A DNA stretch of 28,965 bases from assembly GCF_000497445.1 (NCBI RefSeq), contig NZ_CM002285.1:4648254-4677218 (forward strand). Direction: 5' to 3'. The stretch is from Streptomyces roseochromogenus subsp. oscitans DS 12.976 (GTDB taxonomy: Bacteria; Actinomycetota; Actinomycetes; Streptomycetales; Streptomycetaceae). The translations under genes and the position numbers were made by a program. Below the pieces are notes generated by a model. That model saw nothing but the letters and a program-made list of their open reading frames with translations. It made no database searches and was not told the DNA's origin. Shown piece after piece: positions 4,020-27,048 of this stretch (positions are counted from its first letter, which is position 1; each line of letters opens with the position of its first letter).

Positions 4020-5485
4020 ACAAGCCCCTGCGCCGGATCGCGATCTTCTGCGGCCTCCTCGTGCTGGCCCTGCTGATCCGCGACAACTACCTCCAGTACG
4101 TCAAGGCCGACCAGCTGGCGAGCCAGAAGGACAACCGCCGGGTCGCCATCCAGCGTTACGCGCACCCGCGCGGCGACATCATCGTCGACGGCAACCCGAT
4201 AACCGGCTCCGCCGTGTCCAAGAGCGGTGACTTCAAGTACAAGCGCACCTACAAGGACGGCCCCCTGTGGGCCCCGGTGACCGGCTACTCCTCGCAGGCT
4301 TTCGACGGCAGCCAGCTGGAGAAGATCGACGACGGCATCCTCACCGGCACCGATGACCGGCTCTTCTTCCGCAACACCCTCGACATGATCACGGGCAAGC
4401 CGAAGCAGGGCGGCAATGTCGTCACCACGCTGAACGCGGCCGCGCAGAAGGCGGCGTACGACGGGCTGGCCAAGCAGGGCGGCAAGGGCGCGGTCGTCGC
4501 CCTGGAGCCTTCCACCGGCAAGATCCTGGCGATGGCCTCCTACCCGTCGTACGACCCCTCGTCCTTCTCGGGCTACTCCGACAGCGACGCCAAGGCCTGG
4601 AACAGCCTGAGGGACGACAAGGCCGACCCGATGCAGAACCGGGCGCTGCGCGAGACCTACCCGCCGGGCTCCACGTTCAAGGTGGTCACCGCGGCGGCCG
4701 CGCTGGAGAACGGGCTGTACAAGTCGGCCGACGAGAAGACGAACTCGCCGCTGCCCTGGACCATGCCGGGCACCACGACGCAGCTGAAGAACGAGGGCAA
4801 CATCCCCTGCGAGAACGCCACCCTGCGGACCGCGCTGCAGTACTCCTGCAACACCGTCTTCGGCAAGATCGGCGCCGACCTCGGCAACGACAAGATGCTG
4901 GCCGAGGCCAAGAAGTTCGGCTTCGACTCCGAGCAGTTCACGCCGGTCCGCTCCAACGCCTCGGTGTTCTCGGACAACATGAACCAGTCGCAGACCGCGC
5001 TGTCCTCCATCGGCCAGTACAACACCGCCGCGACCCCGCTGCAGATGGCCATGGTCGCCTCGGCGGTCGCCAACGACGGCAAGCTGATGAAGCCGTACAT
5101 GGTGGACAAGCTCCAGTCGTCCAACCTCGACACCGTCGAGCAGACCGAGCCGCAGGAGATGAGCCGGCCGCTGTCGTCGGAGAACGCGCAGATCCTGCAG
5201 TCGATGATGCAGACGGTGGTCGAGAAGGGCACCGGTACGAACGCCAAGATCGACGGCGTCACCGTCGGCGGCAAGACGGGTACCGCGCAGCACGGTGTGG
5301 CGAACAGCGCCAACCCTTACGCGTGGTTCCTCTCCTACGCCAAGCTGTCCGACGGCAGCTCGCCGGTCGCCGTGGCCGTGGTCATCGAGGACGAGAGCGC
5401 CAACCGCGACGACATCTCGGGTGGCGGCCTGGCGGCGCCCATCGCGAAGAACGTCATGCAGGCGGTCATCCAATCGAAGAAGTGA
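4016..5485 (+). CDS. pbpA: Class B penicillin-binding protein (transpeptidase) PbpA
   Basis: This 489-aa D,D-transpeptidase crosslinks peptidoglycan outside the membrane. A short N-terminal helix (about residues 9-23) anchors it. A small dimerisation region follows, then the transpeptidase domain from about residue 155. The three active-site motifs are present: STFK within PPGSTFKVV (catalytic Ser), SCN within YSCNTVFGK, and KTGTAQ near the C-terminus. The frame stays open far upstream (to 3563), but the ATG at 4016 is chosen because it overlaps the rodA stop by 4 nt and gives the normal MNKPLRR N-terminus. It should form a polymerase-crosslinker pair with RodA in apical or septal wall growth. 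The length is typical of actinobacterial PbpA. Confidence 0.95.
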   Translation: MNKPLRRIAIFCGLLVLALLIRDNYLQYVKADQLASQKDNRRVAIQRYAHPRGDIIVDGNPITGSAVSKSGDFKYKRTYKDGPLWAPVTGYSSQAFDGSQLEKIDDGILTGTDDRLFFRNTLDMITGKPKQGGNVVTTLNAAAQKAAYDGLAKQGGKGAVVALEPSTGKILAMASYPSYDPSSFSGYSDSDAKAWNSLRDDKADPMQNRALRETYPPGSTFKVVTAAAALENGLYKSADEKTNSPLPWTMPGTTTQLKNEGNIPCENATLRTALQYSCNTVFGKIGADLGNDKMLAEAKKFGFDSEQFTPVRSNASVFSDNMNQSQTALSSIGQYNTAATPLQMAMVASAVANDGKLMKPYMVDKLQSSNLDTVEQTEPQEMSRPLSSENAQILQSMMQTVVEKGTGTNAKIDGVTVGGKTGTAQHGVANSANPYAWFLSYAKLSDGSSPVAVAVVIEDESANRDDISGGGLAAPIAKNVMQAVIQSKK

Positions 5486-19254: not shown

Positions 19255-19617
19255 GTGACGGGGAACGTCGGTGGTTTCGAGGATCCGTCCGCCGAGGTTC
19301 TCGGCGAGGCGGCCGCCGCGTTCGGTCTGCTGGCCTCCGCCGCCCGGCTGCACCTGATGTGGGCGCTGTCGCAGGGCGAGAGCGACGTCACGCATCTCGC
19401 CGCCCGGGTCGGCGGAGCGTTGCCCGCGGTCAGCCAGCATCTGGCCAAGCTGAAGCTGGCCGGGCTCGTGAACTGCCGCCGCGAGGGCCGACGGCAGGTC
19501 TACTACGTCGGCGACCCGGACGTCGTCACCGTGGTGCGGGTGATGGTCGGGCAGTTGACGGCGCGGTCGCAGCACGCCCTCGCGCCGGTGCGCGAGCTGC
19601 GCGGGACCGGTGGCTGA
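19255..19617 (+). CDS. ArsR/SmtB-family winged-helix regulator
   Basis: This 120-aa transcription factor has the ArsR fold: a dimerisation helix, LHLMWALSQGESDVTHLAARV, the recognition helix ALPAVSQHLAKLKLAGLV, and a wing with RREGRRQVYYV. The classical ELCVCDL metal site is absent; only one Cys (NCRREG) is seen, so any metal site would use Asp/His/Glu residues, perhaps DPDVVTVV in the last helix. The GTG at 19255 has GGGAGAGG just upstream. Its stop lies 8 nt inside the next gene, an Mg-type P-type ATPase, so it most likely represses its own operon and responds to a metal handled by that pump. Which metal is unknown. Confidence 0.9.
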   Translation: MTGNVGGFEDPSAEVLGEAAAAFGLLASAARLHLMWALSQGESDVTHLAARVGGALPAVSQHLAKLKLAGLVNCRREGRRQVYYVGDPDVVTVVRVMVGQLTARSQHALAPVRELRGTGG

Positions 19618-22231
19618 GTCCACCGCGGCCTCGGGACAGGACGCCGGGACGCCCGGCCCGTCGGCCGTACACGCACCCCGGGGGCTGTCCGCTCCGACCG
19701 TGCTGGAGACGTTGCGCCGGCTGGACAGCGGGCCGCGCGGGCTGACCGAGGCGCAGGCCGAGGAGCGGCTGGCCCGGCTGGGGGAGAACATCGGCCCCGC
19801 CTGGCGCGCGGCCTCCTGGCCGCGGCTGCTCCTGCGCAGCCTGCGGGACCCGTTCACCGCGGTGCTGGCGTGTCTCGGGCTCGTCTCGGCGGCCGTCCTG
19901 GCCTGGAGCACTGCCTCGGTGATCCTGCTGCTCGTCGTGGTGAGCTGCGTCCTGCGGGCCTCCGGGGAGCACCGGGCCGACCGGTCCACGGCCGCGCTGC
20001 GCGAGCTGGTCGCCACCACCGCCACCGTGCTCCGGCGGGCCGACGAGGAGGCCGCACCGGCGACTCGCGAGTTGCCCGTGGCCGAGCTGGTCCCCGGCGA
20101 CGTGATCCGGCTGGGGCCGGGCGACCTGGTCCCGGCGGACGTACGGCTGTTGCGGGCGAGCGGCCTGGCTGTGCACCAGGCCGCTCTGACGGGGGAATCC
20201 GCGCCCGTCGCCAAATCGGCCGACGACCTGCCTCGCGCGGCCGGCGGCGGGCTGTTCGATCAGCCGCAGCTCTGTTTCCAGGGCGGCAGCGTGGCCTCCG
20301 GCAGTGCCACCGCGGTCGTCACGGCGACCGGTGCGCACACCCGGTTCGCCGCGGCTCACGAGGGCCGGGCCGGCCGGCCGGAGGCGAGTGCCTTCGACCG
20401 TTCCGTCCACGGCATCTCCTGGATCCTGATCCGGTTCATGCTGCTGACTCCGCCGCTGGTGCTGATGGCGAACGCGACGCTGCGCGACCGAGGCCTGGAA
20501 ACGCTGCCGTTCGCCGTGGCGGTGGCGGTCGGGCTGACCCCGGAGATGCTGCCGGTCCTCGTCACGCTCTGTCTGGCCCGCGGCGCCTCGCTGCTGGCCC
20601 GCTCGCACGGCGTGATCGTCAAGCGCCTGCCCGCCCTGCACGATGTCGGTGCCGTCGACATCCTGTGCCTGGACAAGACCGGCACCCTCACCCAGGACCG
20701 CCCCGTCGCCGACCGCGCCCTGGGCCCGGACGGCCGCGACGACCCCGAGGTCCTGCACTGGGCCGCCGTCAACGCGTGGTGGACCCTGCAGCTCGCCGAC
20801 CTGCCGGAACCCGACGCCCTGGACGAGGCGGTCCTGGACGCGGTCGACGAGGACACGCTCACGGCGTACGACGGGGTCGCGGCCGTGCCGTTCGCCCCGG
20901 ACCGCCGGCTCGCCGTGGCGGTCGTACGCACCCCCGGCCGGCTCGGCACCCACACTCTGGTCGTCAAGGGAGACGTCCAGGCCGTCCTGGAGCGCTGTGC
21001 ACTCGCGGACGACGAGCGGGAACGGCTGCGCGCCCTCGCCGCCCGGCAGGCCGACGGGGGGGTGCGGGTCCTTGCGGTCGCCACCGCGGAGCGTTACTCC
21101 CGCGCGCGCGACTATCAGCCGGCCGACGCCCGGGGTCTGGTCTTCCGGGGCCTGATCACCCTGCGGGACGCGCTCGTGCCCACCGCCGCCGACGCCCTGA
21201 CGGTCCTCACCGACCGGGGTGTCACCGTCAAGGTCCTCACGGGCGACCATCCGGGTACCGCGGTCCGCGCCTGCCTCGACCTGGGCATCCCGGTCGCCGC
21301 GGACGCCCTTCTCACCGGCGACGACATCGACCTCCTCGCGGACGCCGAACTCTCCGAGGCCGCCGGCCGTACGACCGTCTTCGCGCGCTGCACCCCGGAG
21401 CACAAGGCCCGGATCACCGAGGCGCTGCGCACCGGCGGGCACACCGTGGGCTTCCTCGGCGACGGGGTCAACGACCTGCCCGCGCTGCGCGCCGCCGACG
21501 TCGGCATCGCCCCCCGGGACGCCGCCGACGTGGCCCGGGAAGGCGCCGACGTGGTGCTGGCGGAGAAGGACCTCACCGCGATCGCGCACGCCGTCGCCGC
21601 GGGCCGGCACGCGGGCGGCAATATCGTCACCTATCTGCGCATCACGCTGTCGTCCAACCTGGGCAACGTCCTCGCGATGCTCTCCGCCGGTCTGCTGCTG
21701 CCCTTCCTGCCGATGCTTCCGGCCCAGGTCCTGCTGCAGAACCTGTGCTTCGACGCCGCCCAGCTCACCTTCGCCCATGATCGTCCCGCCCCCGCCGCGC
21801 TGCGCCGGCCGACCGTGCTGGACCCACCGGACCTGCTGCGCTTCATCACCGGCTTCGGGGTGCTCAACGCCGTCGCCGACCTCGCCACCTTCGGCGTCCT
21901 CGCGCTCGCGGTGCACGAGCCGGGGAGAGCGGCGGACGAGGCGGTCTTCCACTCCGGGTGGTTCACGGAGAACCTGGTCACCCAGGCCCTGGTGATGGTG
22001 CTGCTGCGCGTCGGCCGCAGTACGGCCGAGTTCCGCAGGCCGGGCCCGGTCGTCTGGGCCGCGCTGGCGCTGGCCGTCATCGGCCTGGCGTTTCCCCTCT
22101 CACCACTGGGTCCGCTGCTCGGCCTGACCGCCCTGCCGGCCGTGTACTACCTGCTGCTCACCGCCGTCCTGGCCTTCTACGCGGCGGCACTCGTGGCGGC
22201 CCGCAACCGGACCGCCTCACACCCGTCTTAA
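19610..22231 (+). CDS. mgtA: P-type ATPase, magnesium-translocating (MgtA) type
   Basis: This 873-aa pump contains the P-type landmarks: TGES (residues 194-197, actuator domain), the phosphorylated Asp355 in DKTGTLT, VKGDVQAV in the nucleotide-binding domain, and GDGVND (617-622) at the hinge. Transmembrane helix 4 reads VGLTPEMLPVLVT, the signature of P3B Mg2+ ATPases, rather than the CPC of copper/zinc pumps. About ten helices are predicted. P3B pumps import Mg2+ in E. coli and Salmonella. The GTG at 19610 overlaps the arsR stop, which implies coupled translation. Metal specificity is inferred from the helix 4 motif. Control by ArsR instead of an Mg2+-sensing leader is unusual, and no such leader is visible. 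Confidence 0.9.
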   Translation: MAESTAASGQDAGTPGPSAVHAPRGLSAPTVLETLRRLDSGPRGLTEAQAEERLARLGENIGPAWRAASWPRLLLRSLRDPFTAVLACLGLVSAAVLAWSTASVILLLVVVSCVLRASGEHRADRSTAALRELVATTATVLRRADEEAAPATRELPVAELVPGDVIRLGPGDLVPADVRLLRASGLAVHQAALTGESAPVAKSADDLPRAAGGGLFDQPQLCFQGGSVASGSATAVVTATGAHTRFAAAHEGRAGRPEASAFDRSVHGISWILIRFMLLTPPLVLMANATLRDRGLETLPFAVAVAVGLTPEMLPVLVTLCLARGASLLARSHGVIVKRLPALHDVGAVDILCLDKTGTLTQDRPVADRALGPDGRDDPEVLHWAAVNAWWTLQLADLPEPDALDEAVLDAVDEDTLTAYDGVAAVPFAPDRRLAVAVVRTPGRLGTHTLVVKGDVQAVLERCALADDERERLRALAARQADGGVRVLAVATAERYSRARDYQPADARGLVFRGLITLRDALVPTAADALTVLTDRGVTVKVLTGDHPGTAVRACLDLGIPVAADALLTGDDIDLLADAELSEAAGRTTVFARCTPEHKARITEALRTGGHTVGFLGDGVNDLPALRAADVGIAPRDAADVAREGADVVLAEKDLTAIAHAVAAGRHAGGNIVTYLRITLSSNLGNVLAMLSAGLLLPFLPMLPAQVLLQNLCFDAAQLTFAHDRPAPAALRRPTVLDPPDLLRFITGFGVLNAVADLATFGVLALAVHEPGRAADEAVFHSGWFTENLVTQALVMVLLRVGRSTAEFRRPGPVVWAALALAVIGLAFPLSPLGPLLGLTALPAVYYLLLTAVLAFYAAALVAARNRTASHPS

Positions 22232-23041: not shown

Positions 23042-23338
23042 ATGCCGGGCGGGGACTTTCGGCGTACGCGTGCTGCGAACCTGCGGCTGGGCGCTGCCGT
23101 GGCCGAGGTCGAGGGGATCTATTCGGCGTTATTGAGGGCCGGTTCACCCGAACGGCGCAGGCGGCTGCAGAGGGAACTGGCGCGTGCCGCCGGCCGTCTC
23201 GCCGATCTGGCGGCCGTGCCGCCCGCACCGCGGTCCTCGTCCGCCGGCGTGCGGCGCTCGCGGTGGGGACGCAGGCGGGCACTGGCCGAGCGCGGCGCCG
23301 CGTGGATCACGGAGCGGTTCGGGCAGAACACACACTGA
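23042..23338 (+). CDS. Small uncharacterised basic protein with a TTA codon
   Basis: This 98-aa protein has no family I can name. It has a helical N-terminal half (NLRLGAAVAEVEGIYSALLRAG) and a very Arg-rich C-terminal half, and no membrane helix. The ATG at 23042 is chosen over one at 22979 because GGGGAAGGA lies about 9 nt upstream and the extension looks non-coding. Residue 30 is encoded by TTA (23129-23131), so translation should need the bldA leucyl-tRNA, expressed late in Streptomyces development. The basic tail could bind nucleic acid, but that is speculation. An AATAAT-like sequence follows TTGCGCAA near 22979-22990, a possible promoter region. Confidence 0.65.
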   Translation: MPGGDFRRTRAANLRLGAAVAEVEGIYSALLRAGSPERRRRLQRELARAAGRLADLAAVPPAPRSSSAGVRRSRWGRRRALAERGAAWITERFGQNTH

Positions 23339-23424
23339 ACCCACCCGCCGCCTCCGCACCGTCCGGGCCCGCTGCGTACCTCCGGAGAATCCGTCCGGCA
23401 TGGCACACTCGACGTATTGCAGCC

Positions 23425-23440
23425 TTTACACCGCCGTAAA
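23425..23440. promoter_or_regulatory. Putative BlaI operator 1 (before blaI)
   Basis: TTTAC (23425-23429), six bases, then GTAAA (23436-23440) form a perfect dyad 43 nt upstream of the blaI ATG. TAAAAG at 23437-23442 could be the -10. Similar dyads precede the PAP2 and uppP genes, which suggests repressor autoregulation. Confidence 0.65.
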
Positions 23441-23483
23441 AGTTGCGCGACGGCGAGAGACGGACGAGGAAGCGACGAACTCC

Positions 23484-23873
23484 ATGGACGGCGACACACA
23501 CGAGCGGGGCTCCAAGTTGCCGAACGGCGCGCGGGAGGCCGAGATCCTCGCCCTGCTGCAGCGGGCCGAGGGTGCGCTGACCCCGGGTGAGGTCACGGAA
23601 CGGCTCGACGGCGAGCTGACCTACAGCAGCGTGGTGACGATCCTCACCCGCATGCACAGCAAGCAGCTGCTCACCCGCACCCGGCGAGGGCGGGCCTACG
23701 CCTACGCCCCCTCCACCGACGAGGCCGGGTTCGCCGCCCGCCGGATGCGCACTGTCCTGGAGGAGCGGTCCGACCGGCAGGCCGTGCTCGCCCGCTTCGC
23801 CGACGGCCTGTCCGACTCCGACGCCGAGCTGCTGCGGCAGCTCCTCGGCCCCGACTCCGAAGCCGGCCGCTGA
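23484..23873 (+). CDS. blaI: BlaI/MecI/CopY-family transcriptional repressor
   Basis: This 129-aa winged-helix repressor has helices around AREAEILALLQRAEGALTPGEVTERL, a recognition helix LTYSSVVTILTRMHSKQLL (about residues 46-63) and a wing TRTRRGRAYAYAP. The C-terminal helix (about 95-122) should dimerise, as in BlaI and MecI. In those systems a membrane M56 metallopeptidase (BlaR1/MecR1) leads to repressor cleavage when the wall is stressed. Here an M56 gene follows, but a MITE-like element sits in between. The ATG at 23484 is preferred; GAGGAA lies about 12 nt upstream, further than ideal. A matching operator dyad lies before the gene. No beta-lactamase gene is in the window, so the target is probably cell-wall housekeeping. 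Confidence 0.88.
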   Translation: MDGDTHERGSKLPNGAREAEILALLQRAEGALTPGEVTERLDGELTYSSVVTILTRMHSKQLLTRTRRGRAYAYAPSTDEAGFAARRMRTVLEERSDRQAVLARFADGLSDSDAELLRQLLGPDSEAGR

Positions 23874-23886
23874 GCCGTCGTCCGCC

Positions 23887-24133
23887 AGGGCCTGTCCGGC
23901 GGATCATGCCGGAATCGCGGAGCACGGCACGCCCTCCCCCGCCGCCTTGAGGGCGCGGGGCACCCCCAGCGGCGTTGTCGTCGGACACCGACTCCCGCAC
24001 GCTCGGCTTCGCCCGCCGGGGGCCGTCGCGTCGCCGCCCTCCTCCGCCTTGCAGCTGGACGCACCATGCCCCGCTCACGTGTACTGACAAAACACCGTTG
24101 CCTGGAGCCGACCTGATCCGCCGGACAGGCCCT
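23887..24133. mobile_element. MITE-like element with 20-bp perfect terminal inverted repeats
   Basis: The left end (23887-23906, beginning AGGGCCTGTCC) and right end (24114-24133, ending GGACAGGCCCT) are exact 20-bp reverse complements. The 247-bp interior has no transposase gene, but includes a hairpin GCCCTC/GAGGGC (23931-23936 and 23949-23954). No target duplication is clear. It lies 13 nt after the blaI stop and 21 nt before the M56 start. The size and structure fit a non-autonomous element moved by a transposase elsewhere. I recall similar ends in other Streptomyces intergenic DNA, but have not verified this. Confidence 0.8.
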
Positions 24134-24154
24134 AGCACCTTCGAAGAGGCCCGG

Positions 24155-25099
24155 ATGCGCATCCTCGTCTACCTCCCGCTGCTGCTGCCGCTGCTGGCCC
24201 CGCTGGGCGCCCGGCAGTTGTCGGAGCGTTGCGAACCGCGCCTGGCGACCTGGCTGCTCACCGTCTCCTCGCTGGTCCTGGCCATGGCCGGCATCATCTC
24301 GCTGGGCCTGCTGGCCACCACCGGCGTGACCCGCGTACCGCAGCTCGCCGGGCTCGGACACTGGTCGGCCGGCACCGCGCGGCGCGAGGACCCCACCGAG
24401 CTCTCCGTCGCCGTCCTCGCGGGGCTGCTGCTCGGCGGCGCCCTGGTCATGGCCGCCCGGATGCTCTGGCGCCGCGCGCGGGCCCTTGCCGCCGCCGCGC
24501 TGGACGCGGCCTGTATGCCGACGCGGGACGGGGTGGTGGTGGTCGAGGATCCGGCGCCGGACGCGTTCGCGCTGCCGGGGGTGCCGGGCCGGGTCGTGGT
24601 CTCCACCGGGATGCTGCACACGCTGGACGAGGGCGAGCACGGCATCCTGCTCGCCCATGAGCGTGCCCATCTGAGCGCGCACCACTACGCGTTCGTCGCC
24701 CTCGCTCAGCTCGGCGCCGCCGCCAATCCGCTGCTGCGTCCGCTGGCCACCGCCGTCGGCTATACGACCGAGCGCTGGGCCGACGAGTACGCGGCCACCG
24801 TCACCGGCGATCGCGTGCGCGTGGCACGGGCGGTCGGCAAGGCCGCCGTCGCCGCCCACGCCACCCCGGTCCGCTCCCGCCTTCCCGGCGCGGCCCTGGG
24901 CATCCTGGGCCGTCGCCGCAATCCGCTCGCCACCGCCGGCCCCGTGCCCCGCCGGGTGGCGGCCCTGCTCGCCCCGCCCCTCGGACGCCGTCCCCTGCTG
25001 ACCGCGGCCACCCTCGCGGTCCTGCTCACCGCCGTCTGGTCCAGCGCCGAGGCCGCCCACGACCTCCACCAGCTGCTGAAGACGATCGGCGTCCGGTGA
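24155..25099 (+). CDS. M56-family membrane zinc metallopeptidase (BlaR1/MecR1-like, no sensor domain)
   Basis: This 314-aa protein has N-terminal helices (about residues 3-20, 32-55 and 84-103). A cytoplasmic zinc-protease domain follows, with HERAH (168-172) in LLAHERAHLSAHH and a possible third ligand near 206-211 (TERWADEYAA). A last helix lies near 281-297. M56 proteases activate by cutting themselves and then lead to loss of a BlaI-type repressor. Unlike BlaR1 there is no C-terminal penicillin-binding sensor, so the input signal is unknown; short forms are common in actinobacteria. The ATG at 24155 has GAAGAGG 6 nt upstream. The frame reads back into the MITE, but that part is not coding. 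The partner is probably the BlaI repressor upstream. Confidence 0.88.
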   Translation: MRILVYLPLLLPLLAPLGARQLSERCEPRLATWLLTVSSLVLAMAGIISLGLLATTGVTRVPQLAGLGHWSAGTARREDPTELSVAVLAGLLLGGALVMAARMLWRRARALAAAALDAACMPTRDGVVVVEDPAPDAFALPGVPGRVVVSTGMLHTLDEGEHGILLAHERAHLSAHHYAFVALAQLGAAANPLLRPLATAVGYTTERWADEYAATVTGDRVRVARAVGKAAVAAHATPVRSRLPGAALGILGRRRNPLATAGPVPRRVAALLAPPLGRRPLLTAATLAVLLTAVWSSAEAAHDLHQLLKTIGVR

Positions 25100-25111
25100 G
25101 CACCGCCGTCT

Positions 25112-25127
25112 GACGGCTGGCGCCGTC
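25112..25127 (+). terminator. Possible short hairpin after the M56 gene
   Basis: GACGGC (25112-25117) and GCCGTC (25122-25127) form a 6-bp stem with a 4-nt loop, 12 nt after the stop. There is no T tract, so it is only a weak terminator candidate. Confidence 0.35.
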
Positions 25128-25215
25128 GTCGCAGGGCTCACGCCGGGCGCACGCCGGCTGACCGGCATATGCCCTGTTCACGGCGTGCATCGAGATCCCG
25201 CACACCTCCCGAGAT

Positions 25216-25231
25216 TTTACGCGCGTGTAGA
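25216..25231. promoter_or_regulatory. Putative BlaI operator 2 (before PAP2 gene)
   Basis: TTTAC (25216-25220), six bases, then GTAGA (25227-25231) form an imperfect copy of the same dyad. TAGATG at 25228-25233 is a -10-like hexamer in the same register as at uppP, but no -35 is visible. It lies 72 nt before the PAP2 start in the 204-nt gap after the M56 gene, which holds no gene. Confidence 0.55.
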
Positions 25232-25303
25232 TGTTAAGGTGTTGTTCACCATTCCGCATCTCGGTGTTATCGCGGTATCCGCCTGCCCGAAAGCCCCCGC
25301 CTG

Positions 25304-25942
25304 ATGACCCCTCACGCCACGGCGTACCTCGCCCTCGACGGCTCCCGCATCGACGGCTCGCTCTTCACGTCGGTCACCGACTTCGCCCGGGACACCCCCT
25401 GGCTCAACGCCCCGATCGCGCTGACGACCAACCTCGGCCTCGGCGTCTTCGCCGTCCTGATGCTGATCGGCTGGTGGCGGGCCCGCCGCCGCGACGACTC
25501 CGCCATGGCCACGGCCCTGGCCGCCCCGGCGGCGGTCGTGGCGGCCTTCGGCTTCACCGAGGTCGTCAAGAAACTGGTCGCGGAGCCCCGCCCCTGTCGC
25601 GCCCTGCCGCACGACTTCTACGTCAACAGCTGCCCGGCGCCCACCGATTACGCGTTCCCCAGCGGCCACACCACCACCGCGGCCGCCACCGCCGCGGCCC
25701 TCTTCCTCCTCGACCGCCGGCTCGCCGCGATCGCCGCGGTCTGCACGCTCCTGGAGGGCTTCACCCGTGTCTACGTCGGCGATCACTACCCGCACGACGT
25801 CCTCGGTGCCATCCTCATCGCCGCACCTGTCGCCCTGGCCGCCGGCCTGATCCTGCGCGGACTGCTCCGCCCTCTGGTCGCCCGCCTGCGCACCGGAGGC
25901 GTACTCCAGCCGTTGCTCACGGCCCACTCCGCCGCCCGGTGA
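25304..25942 (+). CDS. PAP2-family membrane phosphatase
   Basis: This 212-aa integral membrane phosphatase has about five to six helices. The three PAP2 motifs are present: KKLVAEPRP (Lys89/90 to Arg96), PSGH (119-122) and the Arg155...His161...Asp165 triad in TRVYVGDHYPHD. Members of this family dephosphorylate lipid phosphates, and some (PgpB, BcrC) act on undecaprenyl diphosphate. The ATG at 25304 has only a weak GAAAG ribosome site. An operator-like dyad shared with blaI and uppP lies upstream. With uppP next, a role in recycling the cell-wall lipid carrier is likely, but other lipid phosphates remain possible. Confidence 0.88.
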   Translation: MTPHATAYLALDGSRIDGSLFTSVTDFARDTPWLNAPIALTTNLGLGVFAVLMLIGWWRARRRDDSAMATALAAPAAVVAAFGFTEVVKKLVAEPRPCRALPHDFYVNSCPAPTDYAFPSGHTTTAAATAAALFLLDRRLAAIAAVCTLLEGFTRVYVGDHYPHDVLGAILIAAPVALAAGLILRGLLRPLVARLRTGGVLQPLLTAHSAAR

Positions 25943-26023
25943 GCGCCGAAAGCCTTCCGGGCGCCGGCTCCCCGAGGCGTGACATGAACAGTGGGCGTTG
26001 GCAAAGTGAACACATCGCGCCGC

Positions 26024-26052
26024 TTGACCTGACTTTTACACGCGTGTAATAG
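26024..26052 (+). promoter_or_regulatory. uppP promoter with embedded BlaI-like operator
   Basis: TTGACC (26024-26029) and TAATAG (26047-26052) have the ideal 17-bp spacing of a vegetative promoter. A perfect 14-bp palindrome, TTACACGCGTGTAA (26036-26049), fills the spacer and overlaps the -10; TTTAC starts at 26035. A bound repressor would block polymerase. The rest of the gap 25943-26127 shows no gene. Confidence 0.75.
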
Positions 26053-26127
26053 GTTTTGGTTGGCCGGAGCCACTGCAAGTGTTGTCCGGAGCCCGGCCCC
26101 GCGTGCAGTTCGAGTCGAAGGCCAACC

Positions 26128-27048
26128 ATGTCCGTCCTGACCTACCCCGAAGCCGTGGGCGTCGGCCTGCTGCAAGGCGTCACCGAGCTGTTCCCGGTCT
26201 CCAGCCTCGGGCACAGCATCCTGATACCCGCCCTCCTGGGCGGGCACTGGAAACACGACCTCGACGTGTCCGCCGACGGGTCTCTTTACCTCAACGAGCT
26301 GGTGGGCCTCCATCTGGCCACCGCGCTGGCGCTCGTCGTCTTCTTCTGGCGGGACTGGGTGCGGATCATCCGTGGACTGTTCACGTCGGTCACCCAGCGG
26401 CGGATCGAGACCGTGGACCAGCGGCTCGCCTGGCTGATCGTCAGCGCCAGCATCCCGGTCGCCGTGGCCGGCGTGGCGCTCGACAAGGTGTTCCGCACCA
26501 CGCTCGGCAAGCCCGTCCCGACGGCGATCTTCCTGGCCCTCAACGGCATCGTGCTGTTCGTCACCGAGCAGTTGAAGCGCGGCGGATCAGGCCGCAGGCG
26601 CGCCGGCGCCTCCCTCACCGCGGAGGAGGAACGCCTGAGCCCGGACGAGCTGTCGGACCAGCGGATCACCCGGATGACCATGCGGGACGCACTGACGATC
26701 GGCGCGGCCCAGATCCTCGCCCTCTGCCCCGGCATCAGCCGCTCCGGCTCCACCATCAGCGCGGGCATCTTCAAGGGCCTCAACCACGAGGACTCCGCGC
26801 GCTTCGCCTTCCTGCTCGCCACGCCGGTGATCGGCGGCGCCGCCCTGCTCAAGCTGCCGCCGCTGCTCGGCTCCCAGGGCGACGGCCTGCGCGGCCCGCT
26901 GCTGGCCGGCAGCGTGGCCGCGTTCGTGGCGGCCTACCTGGCCACGCGTTTTCTCGTCAAGTACTTCGAGAACCGGACCCTGATCCCGTTCGCCATCTAC
27001 TGCTCCGTCGCGGGACTGGGCAGCTTGGCCTACTTCACCCTCGCGTGA
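26128..27048 (+). CDS. uppP: Undecaprenyl-diphosphatase UppP (BacA)
   Basis: This 306-aa polytopic enzyme recycles undecaprenyl diphosphate to the monophosphate carrier used for peptidoglycan and other wall polymers; overproduction gives bacitracin resistance. Both active-site regions are present: QGVTELFPVSSLGHS (Glu20) and PGISRSGST (residues 201-209, with Arg205). A cytoplasmic loop near 155-180 is longer and more charged than in the E. coli enzyme (273 aa). The ATG at 26128 has GAAGG 6 nt upstream; the open frame to 26056 is not needed. A strong promoter with an embedded operator precedes it. The gene follows a PAP2 phosphatase that may act on the same lipid. Confidence 0.95.
   Translation: MSVLTYPEAVGVGLLQGVTELFPVSSLGHSILIPALLGGHWKHDLDVSADGSLYLNELVGLHLATALALVVFFWRDWVRIIRGLFTSVTQRRIETVDQRLAWLIVSASIPVAVAGVALDKVFRTTLGKPVPTAIFLALNGIVLFVTEQLKRGGSGRRRAGASLTAEEERLSPDELSDQRITRMTMRDALTIGAAQILALCPGISRSGSTISAGIFKGLNHEDSARFAFLLATPVIGGAALLKLPPLLGSQGDGLRGPLLAGSVAAFVAAYLATRFLVKYFENRTLIPFAIYCSVAGLGSLAYFTLA

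Follow-up and report, generated by a model that had tools for sequence, protein, structure and literature searches.

Operator-like dyads suggest that a BlaI-family repressor governs lipid-carrier recycling genes in Streptomyces

Background

The BlaI/BlaR1 and MecI/MecR1 systems of Staphylococcus aureus combine a BlaI-family repressor and an operator built on a TACA/TGTA core, as described in the part of PMC4549145 available to us, with an adjoining gene for a membrane zinc protease carrying HExxH...ExxxD, and the operator in front of the repressor gene implies autoregulation. The Streptomyces locus analysed here resembles them in these respects and differs in that its putative targets are lipid-carrier phosphatases and not a beta-lactamase or PBP2a, in that no penicillin-binding sensor domain was found in its protease and in the spacing of the operator core, which is N4 (N3 in one group of repressors, clade C). 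An earlier note on this DNA had taken known BlaI systems to control beta-lactamases or PBP2a. This proves too narrow as BlaI of Mycobacterium tuberculosis binds the promoters of Rv1303, which is co-transcribed with ATP synthase genes, and of Rv2151c (available part of PMC12565901) and as many Streptomyces BlaI genes adjoin terB/terD. The M. tuberculosis repressor is thus similar in having targets beyond beta-lactamase and different in what those targets are, with uppP, PAP2 and DedA not named alongside Rv1303 and Rv2151c in that part of PMC12565901.

Two further groups of repressors are informative with respect to operator architecture. BlaI_0696 and BlaI_1845 of C. thermocellum have paired GTCTAT or GACTAT inverted repeats upstream of the repressor operon and control few genes each, a putative gene for peptidoglycan synthesis being part of one of the two regulons; they differ from our locus in the 5 nt between the GTCTAT repeats and in their targets (PMC8457756, in part). 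The homologous repressors CopR/CopY use the operator TACANNTGTA, and for CopY the TACA-N2-TGTA core alone is a poor predictor of binding (PMC7253601, in part). DedA flippases of COG0586 share the VTT domain and acidic and arginine residues with putative dedA targets at other loci, and a regulatory specialisation of redundant DedA genes has been suggested (PMC10127716, in part); BlaI control is not mentioned in section 6 of that article. BlaI and DedA as whole words never occur together in the open PubMed Central literature, and for BlaI with undecaprenyl pyrophosphate phosphatase the titles among the matches listed there gave no hint of the regulon considered here.

Results and discussion

The window, meaning the whole stretch of 28,965 nucleotides that was analysed, carries on its + strand a blaI-family repressor gene (23484..23873, 129 aa), a gene for a membrane zinc metalloprotease of M48/M56 type (24155..25099, 314 aa), a PAP2 phosphatase gene (25304..25942, 212 aa) and the undecaprenyl-diphosphate phosphatase gene uppP/bacA (26128..27048, 306 aa). 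Three operator-like dyads had been described here and their coordinates and letters were confirmed, each upstream of the gene in question and annotated without strand: TTTACACCGCCGTAAA at 23425..23440 before blaI, TTTACGCGCGTGTAGA at 25216..25231 before the PAP2 gene and TTTACACGCGTGTAAT at 26035..26050 before uppP, the dyad starts lying 59, 88 and 93 bp from the respective ATG. The uppP dyad contains a perfect 14-bp palindrome (26036-26049, TTACACGCGTGTAA) and is the only one in the window with both TACA and TGTA. The blaI dyad is a TACA/TGTA core inverted repeat with one half-site mismatch and N4 spacing, not the N2 of CopY, and corresponds to one of the two tandem sites of its clade, which lie 19 bp apart in six blaI orthologues; the second is not recognisable in the window. 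Compared with their counterparts in relatives the window dyads are weaker. The gene order blaI-protease-PAP2-uppP was encountered at no examined locus other than the window and its near-copy (L024/L161).

The repressor scores 75.4 bits against PF03965 (Penicillinase_R, cut-off 22.6), and its nearest solved relative by sequence is 2g9w, which we take to be M. tuberculosis BlaI (Rv1846c). Assignment as a CopY copper repressor was rejected (TIGR02698, 22.7 bits vs 121.95); the protein has no cysteine and therefore no CXC metal motif, which sets it apart from CopR/CopY. Of the two genes previously read as likely undecaprenyl-phosphate phosphatases, UppP stands by equivalog (NF001395, 431.4 bits vs 394; PF02673, 242.9 bits) and carries PGISRSGST and QGVTE, matching what we take to be the catalytic patterns PGxSRSxxT and QxxxE. 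The PAP2 protein (PF01569, 71.6 bits) has a BcrC/YbjG-like PAP2 domain and all three presumed catalytic motifs, K-x6-RP, PSGH and (S/T)R-x5-H-x3-D, the third with T for S. It stays below the curated C55-PP phosphatase equivalogs (NF047884 at best, 57 vs 250; NF008813, 42.8 vs 229) and its substrate is therefore unproven, C55-PP being the candidate. No beta-lactamase or PBP2a target gene was found in the window, where the putative targets are PAP2 and UppP.

Within the window only the three dyads match TTTAC-N6-GTARA with 0-1 mismatch, and with up to two mismatches there were 13 matches vs 3.23 expected (sd 1.88), a number reached in 0 of 100 shuffles. Such spellings are rare in the 9.78 Mb genome, where TTAC-N6-GTAA occurs at 16 places (two in the window), YTAC-N6-GTAR at 89 (three in the 2.6 kb of the dyads, among the matches listed, 50 of the 89) and TACA-N4-TGTA at 5 (one in the window, at uppP). 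The Poisson probability of three of 89 within 2626 bp is 2.2e-6, for a region picked after the fact, and there is no clear genome-wide excess of 16, 89 and 5 over the 10, 120 and 8 of backwards controls. A two-mismatch genome search was discarded as useless (2117 matches per strand vs 1906 in the control). The TACA-N4-TGTA places at 5462571 and 6674431 lie within reading frames, at 5462571 within unassigned ones only, and have no obvious link. The -10-like hexamers noted 12 bases into each dyad are spelled as described; they sit in the right half of the dyads and are therefore not independent evidence. We rejected them as a separate line of evidence on this ground and as a sigma-70 scan of 23300-26200 found no promoter-like site.

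In order to look at operators without a preset pattern, an unbiased gapped-palindrome scan was run on the regions upstream of 61 Streptomyces BlaI-family genes. The dyad was the top palindrome, which agrees with the BlaI-type operator reading put forward earlier: TCTAC-N6-GTAGA was present in 36 of the 61 regions and CTACA-N4-TGTAG in 35, with the best palindrome not overlapping the dyad in 9 and any palindrome in at most 5 in 20 letter shuffles (preserving letter counts only) and at most 5 in control regions. Exact TACA-N4-TGTA was found in 38 of the 61 and 11 other half-site permutations in none, and each of six orthologues (L175-L180) has at least one exact inverted-repeat site upstream of blaI. 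With at most one mismatch, between -900 and +60, the dyad was present at 24/30 BlaI matches and 25/30 PAP2 matches; 10 of the latter lie within 250 bp of PAP2 and 15 farther away at about 710-850 bp upstream, an offset that corresponds to a dedA gene preceding PAP2 as in L155 and L169-L171. PAP2 genes elsewhere bear TCTACA-N4-TGTAGA-like dyads, and a dyad lies within 400 bp of 30/30 best matches of one dedA type, whose operons are shared with many of the PAP2 matches. In these 30-match counts (BlaI, PAP2, uppP, dedA) the gene was taken to start at locus position 1501, which does not hold for loci truncated at a contig end. The dyad as a predicted operator class of Streptomyces BlaI-family genes is supported by these patterns. 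That the dyads are products of chance or of AT-rich promoter composition would fit the lack of a clear genome-wide excess over backwards controls; it is already contradicted by the palindrome scan, and across the 150 genomes searched the dyads are concentrated at promoters of BlaI-family, PAP2 and dedA genes, which also makes it hardly credible.

Of 20 BlaI genes outside the Ter clade, 13 have a UppP, PAP2 or DedA gene no more than 5 kb away, against 1 of 41 inside it, figures that come from the 61 ranked matches only, with a clade border drawn after the tree was seen; seventeen loci added to the tree as PAP2 neighbours or source-genome paralogues stand outside both. This linkage with C55-P recycling genes recurs in further genomes, in different gene orders and with other BlaI clades, and also outside the genus Streptomyces. 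A divergent common operator is shared by blaI with uppP (L179, L183, L330), dedA-GT-uppP (L175, L180), dedA-uppP (L331) and PAP2 (L156), and PAP2 genes with a dyad and no BlaI gene in the stretch examined were found at L160, L162, L163, L164 and L174. DedA is a putative C55-P flippase; the VTT domain was present in the three dedA products tested, and DedA products of other loci have, judged by eye, acidic and arginine residues like those in the available part of PMC10127716. For the ordinary second genomic uppP (C1:8635742), a possible further regulon member, an imperfect TCTACA-N4-TGTCGA, one half-site off, lies about 40 bp upstream in 14/30 matches; the other two of the 16/30 dyads seen there are an exact one at -243 (L216) and one common with blaI of L183 (L224).

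Loss of the dyad in relatives that keep the genes was tested and mostly not seen. An N5 or N6 dyad was present in 14/16 uppP orthologue promoters of Streptomycetaceae, a count that leaves out L047 and L048 (truncated S. monashensis fragments) and L051 and L052 (34-37% identity), keeps L049 and L050, which come from separate contigs of the same S. monashensis draft, and counts L067, taken as the same locus as L027, once. All ten window-clade blaI promoters have the N6 dyad, and no site was found at the uppP promoters of L028, L050 and L068 (the last a 17th, from another search). Outside Streptomycetaceae a dyad within 160 nt was found at 0/9 uppP orthologues. In the 30-match counts the N6 form with at most one mismatch was present at only 2/30 uppP matches, the window gene and its near-copy, 26 of the 30 being 32-38% relatives. 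Among PAP2 relatives of at least 65% identity, source genome and near-copy excluded, three of six have the N6 dyad (L097, L099, L160) and L098, L100 and L101 have N5 dyads in its place; at clade D loci a dyad lay within 330 bp of the best PAP2 match in only 1/8. In Kitasatospora and Streptacidiphilus the dyad is retained at uppP, with G at -9 of the left half-site, and no BlaI gene was found in the stretch examined. One could suppose that only the site at 23425 is a real operator, serving autoregulation, and that the PAP2 and uppP dyads just resemble promoter sequence or serve a different regulator, as the overlap with possible -10 spellings and the imperfect match of the PAP2 dyad would allow. 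Given how rare the dyads are in the genome and that they are kept at uppP orthologues and at PAP2 genes with no BlaI gene found nearby, we regard this as very improbable.

The best test of the regulon reading is spacer length, which tracks the repressor clade. In BlaI clade C, N5 dyads occur at 8/8 blaI, 4/4 PAP2 and 1/1 uppP promoters. In the window's BlaI clade N6 dyads occur at 10/10 blaI, 2/2 PAP2, 3/3 dedA and 4/8 uppP promoters, the uppP genes without a site being preceded by further genes in a divergent operon (L175, L178, L180) or by dedA (L331). Between TACA and TGTA this amounts to N4, and to N3 in clade C. N5 in 8/8 of clade C vs 1/60 others gives p 1.2e-9, ignoring relatedness as do our statistical tests in general. 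This comparison counts both the window and its near-copy L161 and leaves out seven BlaI loci (L156, L181-L185, L189), five with an N6 dyad (at most one mismatch) and two without. The uppP of L031 has an N5 dyad and adjoins a clade-C-like BlaI, absent from the tree, with its own N5 dyad. At flank position -9, T is found in 83% for the window's BlaI clade, G in 97% in dedA operons and G in 0/6 window half-sites.

As eight BlaI-family matches, of which one is marginal, exceed the cut-off in the source genome, another paralogue could bind the dyads, and these may be BlaI-family operators occupied mainly by that paralogue or by several, with the local blaI not the master. Operators of different BlaI clades show little core difference, and the Kitasatospora and Streptacidiphilus dyads with their -9 G would suit such an arrangement; however the dyads at PAP2 and uppP have the spacer length that goes with the clade of the BlaI linked to them, and at -9 the window sites agree with those of their own clade and not with those of dedA operons, which argues for control by the local BlaI and makes the paralogue unlikely. 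Taking dyad enrichment, gene linkage and the tracking of spacer by clade together, the proposed BlaI regulon for lipid-carrier recycling is therefore largely supported and reaches beyond the window, with dedA included.

The protease had been read as M56 and is by Pfam cut-off an M48 protein (PF01435, 47.2 bits, above cut-off; PF05569 for M56, 16.6 bits, below the cut-off of 31). Of its aligned relatives 14/16 give a PF05569 match with E of 0.01 or less, and many are named 'M56 family metallopeptidase' in the sources. HExxH (H168ExxH) and ExxxD (E206xxxD) are invariant in the 16 aligned sequences, and a crude scan gave three hydrophobic segments. No C-terminal penicillin-binding sensor domain was found in the 314 aa and no transpeptidase or beta-lactamase family match. 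A profile search of solved structures returned M48/HtpX-type chains, not BlaR1, and a fold search with a weak model (mean pLDDT 62) ranked BepA first and BlaR1 (8exq/8exr) second and third at E 0.4/0.63, none significant. A protease match lies within 5 kb of 52/61 BlaI genes, in most cases immediately after the repressor gene and in the same direction; none was found near BlaI of L181, L182 (where the contig ends 0.7 kb past the gene) and L185. These last three loci and the sensor domain not found in the window protease are what one might expect if a small ligand, for instance a peptidoglycan dipeptide, released BlaI and the protease had another role, for example its own quality control, and in B. 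licheniformis a gamma-D-Glu-meso-A2pm dipeptide frees BlaI from its operator (PMC3305447, in part). The frequency of the pairing and the invariant HExxH and ExxxD, as in BlaR1 (PMC9834060, in part), speak for a proteolytic release and make the ligand rather doubtful.

Conclusions

Our analysis indicates that the three dyads are likely operators of the local BlaI, a putatively protease-released repressor that would govern PAP2 and uppP. This draws on features read directly from the DNA, namely the dyads and the enrichment of such dyads at BlaI-family genes, the gene linkage and the covariation of spacer and clade. A dimer of the 23484-23873 product would bind the three dyads and hold down its own gene, the PAP2 gene and uppP, presumably repressing and not activating them, and the protease gene behind blaI is probably under the same repression. 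Disturbed wall or lipid-carrier synthesis would be the inducing signal, upon which the membrane zinc protease would inactivate BlaI, probably by cleaving it in the manner of BlaR1, and the repressor-protease pair may in this way sense wall damage. Both phosphatases would then rise together and turn undecaprenyl diphosphate faster into usable undecaprenyl phosphate. Other actinomycetes may follow the same logic, the targets there being PAP2, UppP and the putative flippase DedA. It is possible, and we offer it tentatively, that BlaI/protease pairs form a general actinomycete lipid-carrier switch in which separate repressor clades with operator spacings of their own recruited UppP, PAP2 and DedA into a single C55-P recycling regulon and the small sensor-less protease reads the carrier state of the membrane directly and not beta-lactam.

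The BlaI family, known for the control of antibiotic resistance, thus appears, in Streptomyces and a number of soil bacteria related to it, also to govern enzymes that recycle the lipid carrier of cell-wall synthesis. There are several UppP, PAP2 and DedA copies per cell, and the window BlaI is a concrete candidate regulator with mapped sites. If true, the repressor-protease logic of beta-lactam resistance would also serve lipid-carrier homeostasis, in organisms that make many antibiotics against lipid II and its carrier.

The blaI cluster and its three dyads

The window (C1:4648254-4677218 of the 9.78 Mb genome, whose nearest relatives place it in Streptomyces) carries on its plus strand, in this order and by Pfam/NCBIfam assignment, genes for a repressor of the BlaI family (23484-23873), a 314-aa membrane zinc protease (24155-25099), a PAP2 phosphatase (25304-25942) and UppP (26128-27048). 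Among the loci examined, this order was seen only here and in one near-identical relative. The window UppP scores above its NCBIfam equivalog cut-off; the PAP2 protein has the PAP2 catalytic motifs and reaches no C55-PP equivalog cut-off in NCBIfam. The earlier note had called the protease M56, and what stands of this is a membrane zinc protease, scoring above the M48 and below the M56 cut-off. Its HExxH and ExxxD zinc motifs are invariant in 16 aligned sequences, a likeness to BlaR1, for which PMC9834060 gives the same two motifs. No sensor domain was found in the 314 residues, and a structure model of the protein was too weak to settle the type of protease.

A 253-bp element with terminal inverted repeats of 29 nt (90% complementary) lies between blaI and the protease gene (23884-24136); having 57 matches, mostly partial, in the genome, it looks like a MITE-type repeat. 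It is present in shortened form in L161, a near-copy of the window locus, and may influence whether the two genes flanking it are transcribed together. Upstream lies a magnesium-type P-type ATPase gene (19610-22228; TIGR01524 above cut-off); a similar one is also found 5' of uppP in the relatives L026, L028 and L050, in whose fetched stretches there was no blaI match.

The dyads claimed upstream of blaI, PAP2 and uppP are indeed present, at 23425-23440, 25216-25231 and 26035-26050, starting 59, 88 and 93 bp 5' of the respective ATG. They are weaker members of their operator class. TTAC-N6-GTAA occurs at 16 places in the genome (two are window dyads), YTAC-N6-GTAR at 89 (three) and TACA-N4-TGTA at five (one, before uppP), with no clear genome-wide excess over controls (10, 120 and 8). 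Finding three of the 89 within 2626 bp has a Poisson P of 2.2e-6, in a region chosen because of its dyads. Of the five TACA-N4-TGTA places two fall within reading frames, and that at 9003139 has a BlaI gene on one side and terD-like genes on the other. An imperfect dyad, TCTACA-N4-TGTCGA (L349:5703-5716; G000 C1:8635702-8635715), is located 40 bp 5' of the ordinary uppP and recurs in 14/30 matches of the corresponding search.

The operator class of Streptomyces BlaI genes

From 150 Streptomyces genomes we collected the 61 genes matching the window BlaI best, with their surroundings; 52 of the 61 have a protease match within 5 kb. Exact 5-mer palindromes with spacers of 0-12 were scanned in 320 bp around each BlaI start. 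The top palindromes were TCTAC-N6-GTAGA (36/61) and CTACA-N4-TGTAG (35/61), while the best one not overlapping the dyad reached 9, and twenty letter shuffles and control regions gave at most 5. Exact TACA-N4-TGTA was found in 38/61 regions and the eleven other half-site permutations in none; allowing one mismatch, the dyad is present between -450 and +60 at 48/61 starts. These sequence counts identify the dyad as the operator class of the BlaI family in Streptomyces. For CopY, PMC7253601 describes the TACA/TGTA core as insufficient for binding. The genome has eight BlaI-family matches, one marginal, and several other members may compete with the window BlaI.

Conservation of the dyad at uppP held within the family: starts of close orthologues at 16 Streptomycetaceae loci carried YTAC-N6-GTAR in ten cases, a form with a one-base-shorter spacer (N5) in four and neither in two. 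It did not hold at a further orthologue (L068) or in other families, where 0/9 orthologues had a dyad within 160 nt. When the window UppP was searched more widely, 2/30 matches had an N6 dyad, 26 of the 30 being 32-38% relatives.

Spacer length follows repressor type

Spacers of 2-10 were examined at the promoters of the BlaI clades. Clade C (L157, L158, L159, L263, L266, L272, L291 and the genome's own paralogue L002) lacks the N6 dyad at 7/8 BlaI genes and has N5 at 8/8 blaI, 4/4 linked PAP2 and the single linked uppP; its N8 matches accompany N5 sites with TAG repeated in the right half. In the window's clade, to which L330 and L331 of another family also belong, N6 is present at 10/10 blaI, 2/2 PAP2, 3/3 dedA and four of eight uppP; of the four uppP without it, those of L175, L178 and L180 are internal to divergent operons and that of L331 is behind dedA. 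A dedA clade has N6 at 9/9 blaI (one also N5), 7/7 dedA and 1/8 PAP2. S. naganishii (L027/L157) carries N5 at blaI, PAP2 and uppP, and S. malaysiense (L025) at PAP2 and uppP, with a protease remnant only and no BlaI gene found at that locus.

As a check we used a BlaI absent from the tree, at MAG locus L031. This BlaI adjoins an N5-type uppP, has its own N5 dyad and shares 74-80% identity with seven members of clade C; the eighth, L157, fell outside the 14 best matches listed. Target genes thus switch spacer along with repressor type. This joint change across different targets would not be predicted from chance, from the shape of promoters or from a regulator of another kind.

Lipid-carrier genes as putative partners of BlaI

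Dyads lie 5' of 25 of the 30 best PAP2 matches, ten at 250 bp or less and 15 at about 710-850 bp, the distance given by a dedA gene (putative C55-P flippase) preceding PAP2. For one dedA type, dyads were within 400 bp of all 30 best matches, often as a tandem pair 19 bp apart; the two match lists have operons in common. At five PAP2 loci with a dyad (L160, which starts at a contig end, L162, L163, L164 and L174) no BlaI gene was found in the fetched 8.5-10 kb, and the dyad is thus more than a promoter shared with blaI.

Tandem dyads are present in the orthologues closest to the window BlaI (L175-L180, 77-82% identity). The divergent operon contains dedA, a glycosyltransferase gene and uppP in L175 and L180 (families tested in L175) and the latter two in L178; in L179 uppP itself is divergent from blaI. 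No uppP was found in L176 or in L177, which is at a contig end. As the UppP subfamily of these loci shares 27-29% identity with the window's, the BlaI-uppP link is seen with two unlike UppP proteins.

UppP, PAP2 or DedA is encoded within 5 kb of ten of the 15 nearest BlaI relatives (window included), a class A penicillin-binding protein (PBP) near three; the remaining 46 include four with lipid-carrier genes at that distance, most others being near terB/terD. The BlaI tree, to which seventeen loci were added with their neighbours already known, places the window in a set of 38 rows (lipid-carrier 25, PBP 4, none 9); a branch with support 100/99 separates this set from a clade of 42 rows that is mostly Ter-linked. 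Counting only the 61 ranked matches, lipid-carrier genes are within 5 kb in 13/20 outside the Ter clade and in 1/41 of its members (Fisher p 1.4e-7, relatedness ignored).

The Ter-type clade (many loci among L188, L190-L193 and L260-L299) has terB/terD within 5 kb in 33 of its 42 tree rows and would represent BlaI-type control of tellurium-resistance-like genes through mostly the same N6 operator (31/41; N5 0/41). At L181, L182 and L185 blaI is divergent from a class A PBP gene (transglycosylase and transpeptidase domains, tested in L181) with a dyad in between, and no protease match adjoins BlaI. Elsewhere in the window's own genome, dedA-PAP2-PAP2 (stretch L155:4270-6299; G000 C1:824269-826298) are followed by apparent two-component genes, one for a response regulator and one for a sensor kinase. 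The TACA-N4-TGTA place at 824289 lies before this operon, as do two BlaI-type dyads in tandem, separated by 19 bp; with the recurrence of such dyads at the 30 best dedA matches, this suggests a second, larger lipid-carrier operon.

Loci outside the genus

Among 19 listed protease matches outside the genus, nine had a gene for UppP, PAP2 or DedA within the stretch that was fetched. In L330 and L331 (family f17) the genes divergent from blaI-protease are uppP or dedA-uppP, and the tandem N6 dyads recur; only these two of the loci have an N6 dyad in promoter position. The divergent partner is uppP-dedA in L343, PAP2-dedA in L337 and dedA in L348; L335 reads blaI-protease-PAP2, and L336, L344 and L347 have a uppP match at about 2.5-2.7 kb (short pieces only in L336 and L347). 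In L331 dedA, which stands between blaI and uppP, is broken up into two frames (5008-5411), through either gene decay or an assembly error. CTACTA...TAGTAG-type palindromes were present in several of twelve inspected loci. In family f18 (L333, L336, L344, L347) the blaI upstream regions share a conserved TCTACTATTCATCGAGTAGTAGA-like palindrome, which in some, by eye, precedes an ABC-transporter-like gene.

A putative regulon for lipid-carrier recycling

The position of the dyads shortly 5' of start codons and the BlaI family itself suggest that BlaI would act as a repressor at the predicted sites. The protease might read membrane or lipid-carrier state; alternatively, a muropeptide ligand might act on BlaI, such a ligand being described for B. 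licheniformis (PMC3305447). Against the regulon speak the weakness of the window's own dyads, the gene order confined among these loci to the window and its near-identical relative, the other BlaI-family genes of the genome and the finding on CopY. Among the open-access papers searched we found none linking BlaI to UppP, PAP2 or DedA. The repressor family and the protease logic are already known; what would be new, judging from the genomes, is a system in which no antibiotic sensor was found and whose putative targets are genes of lipid-carrier recycling.
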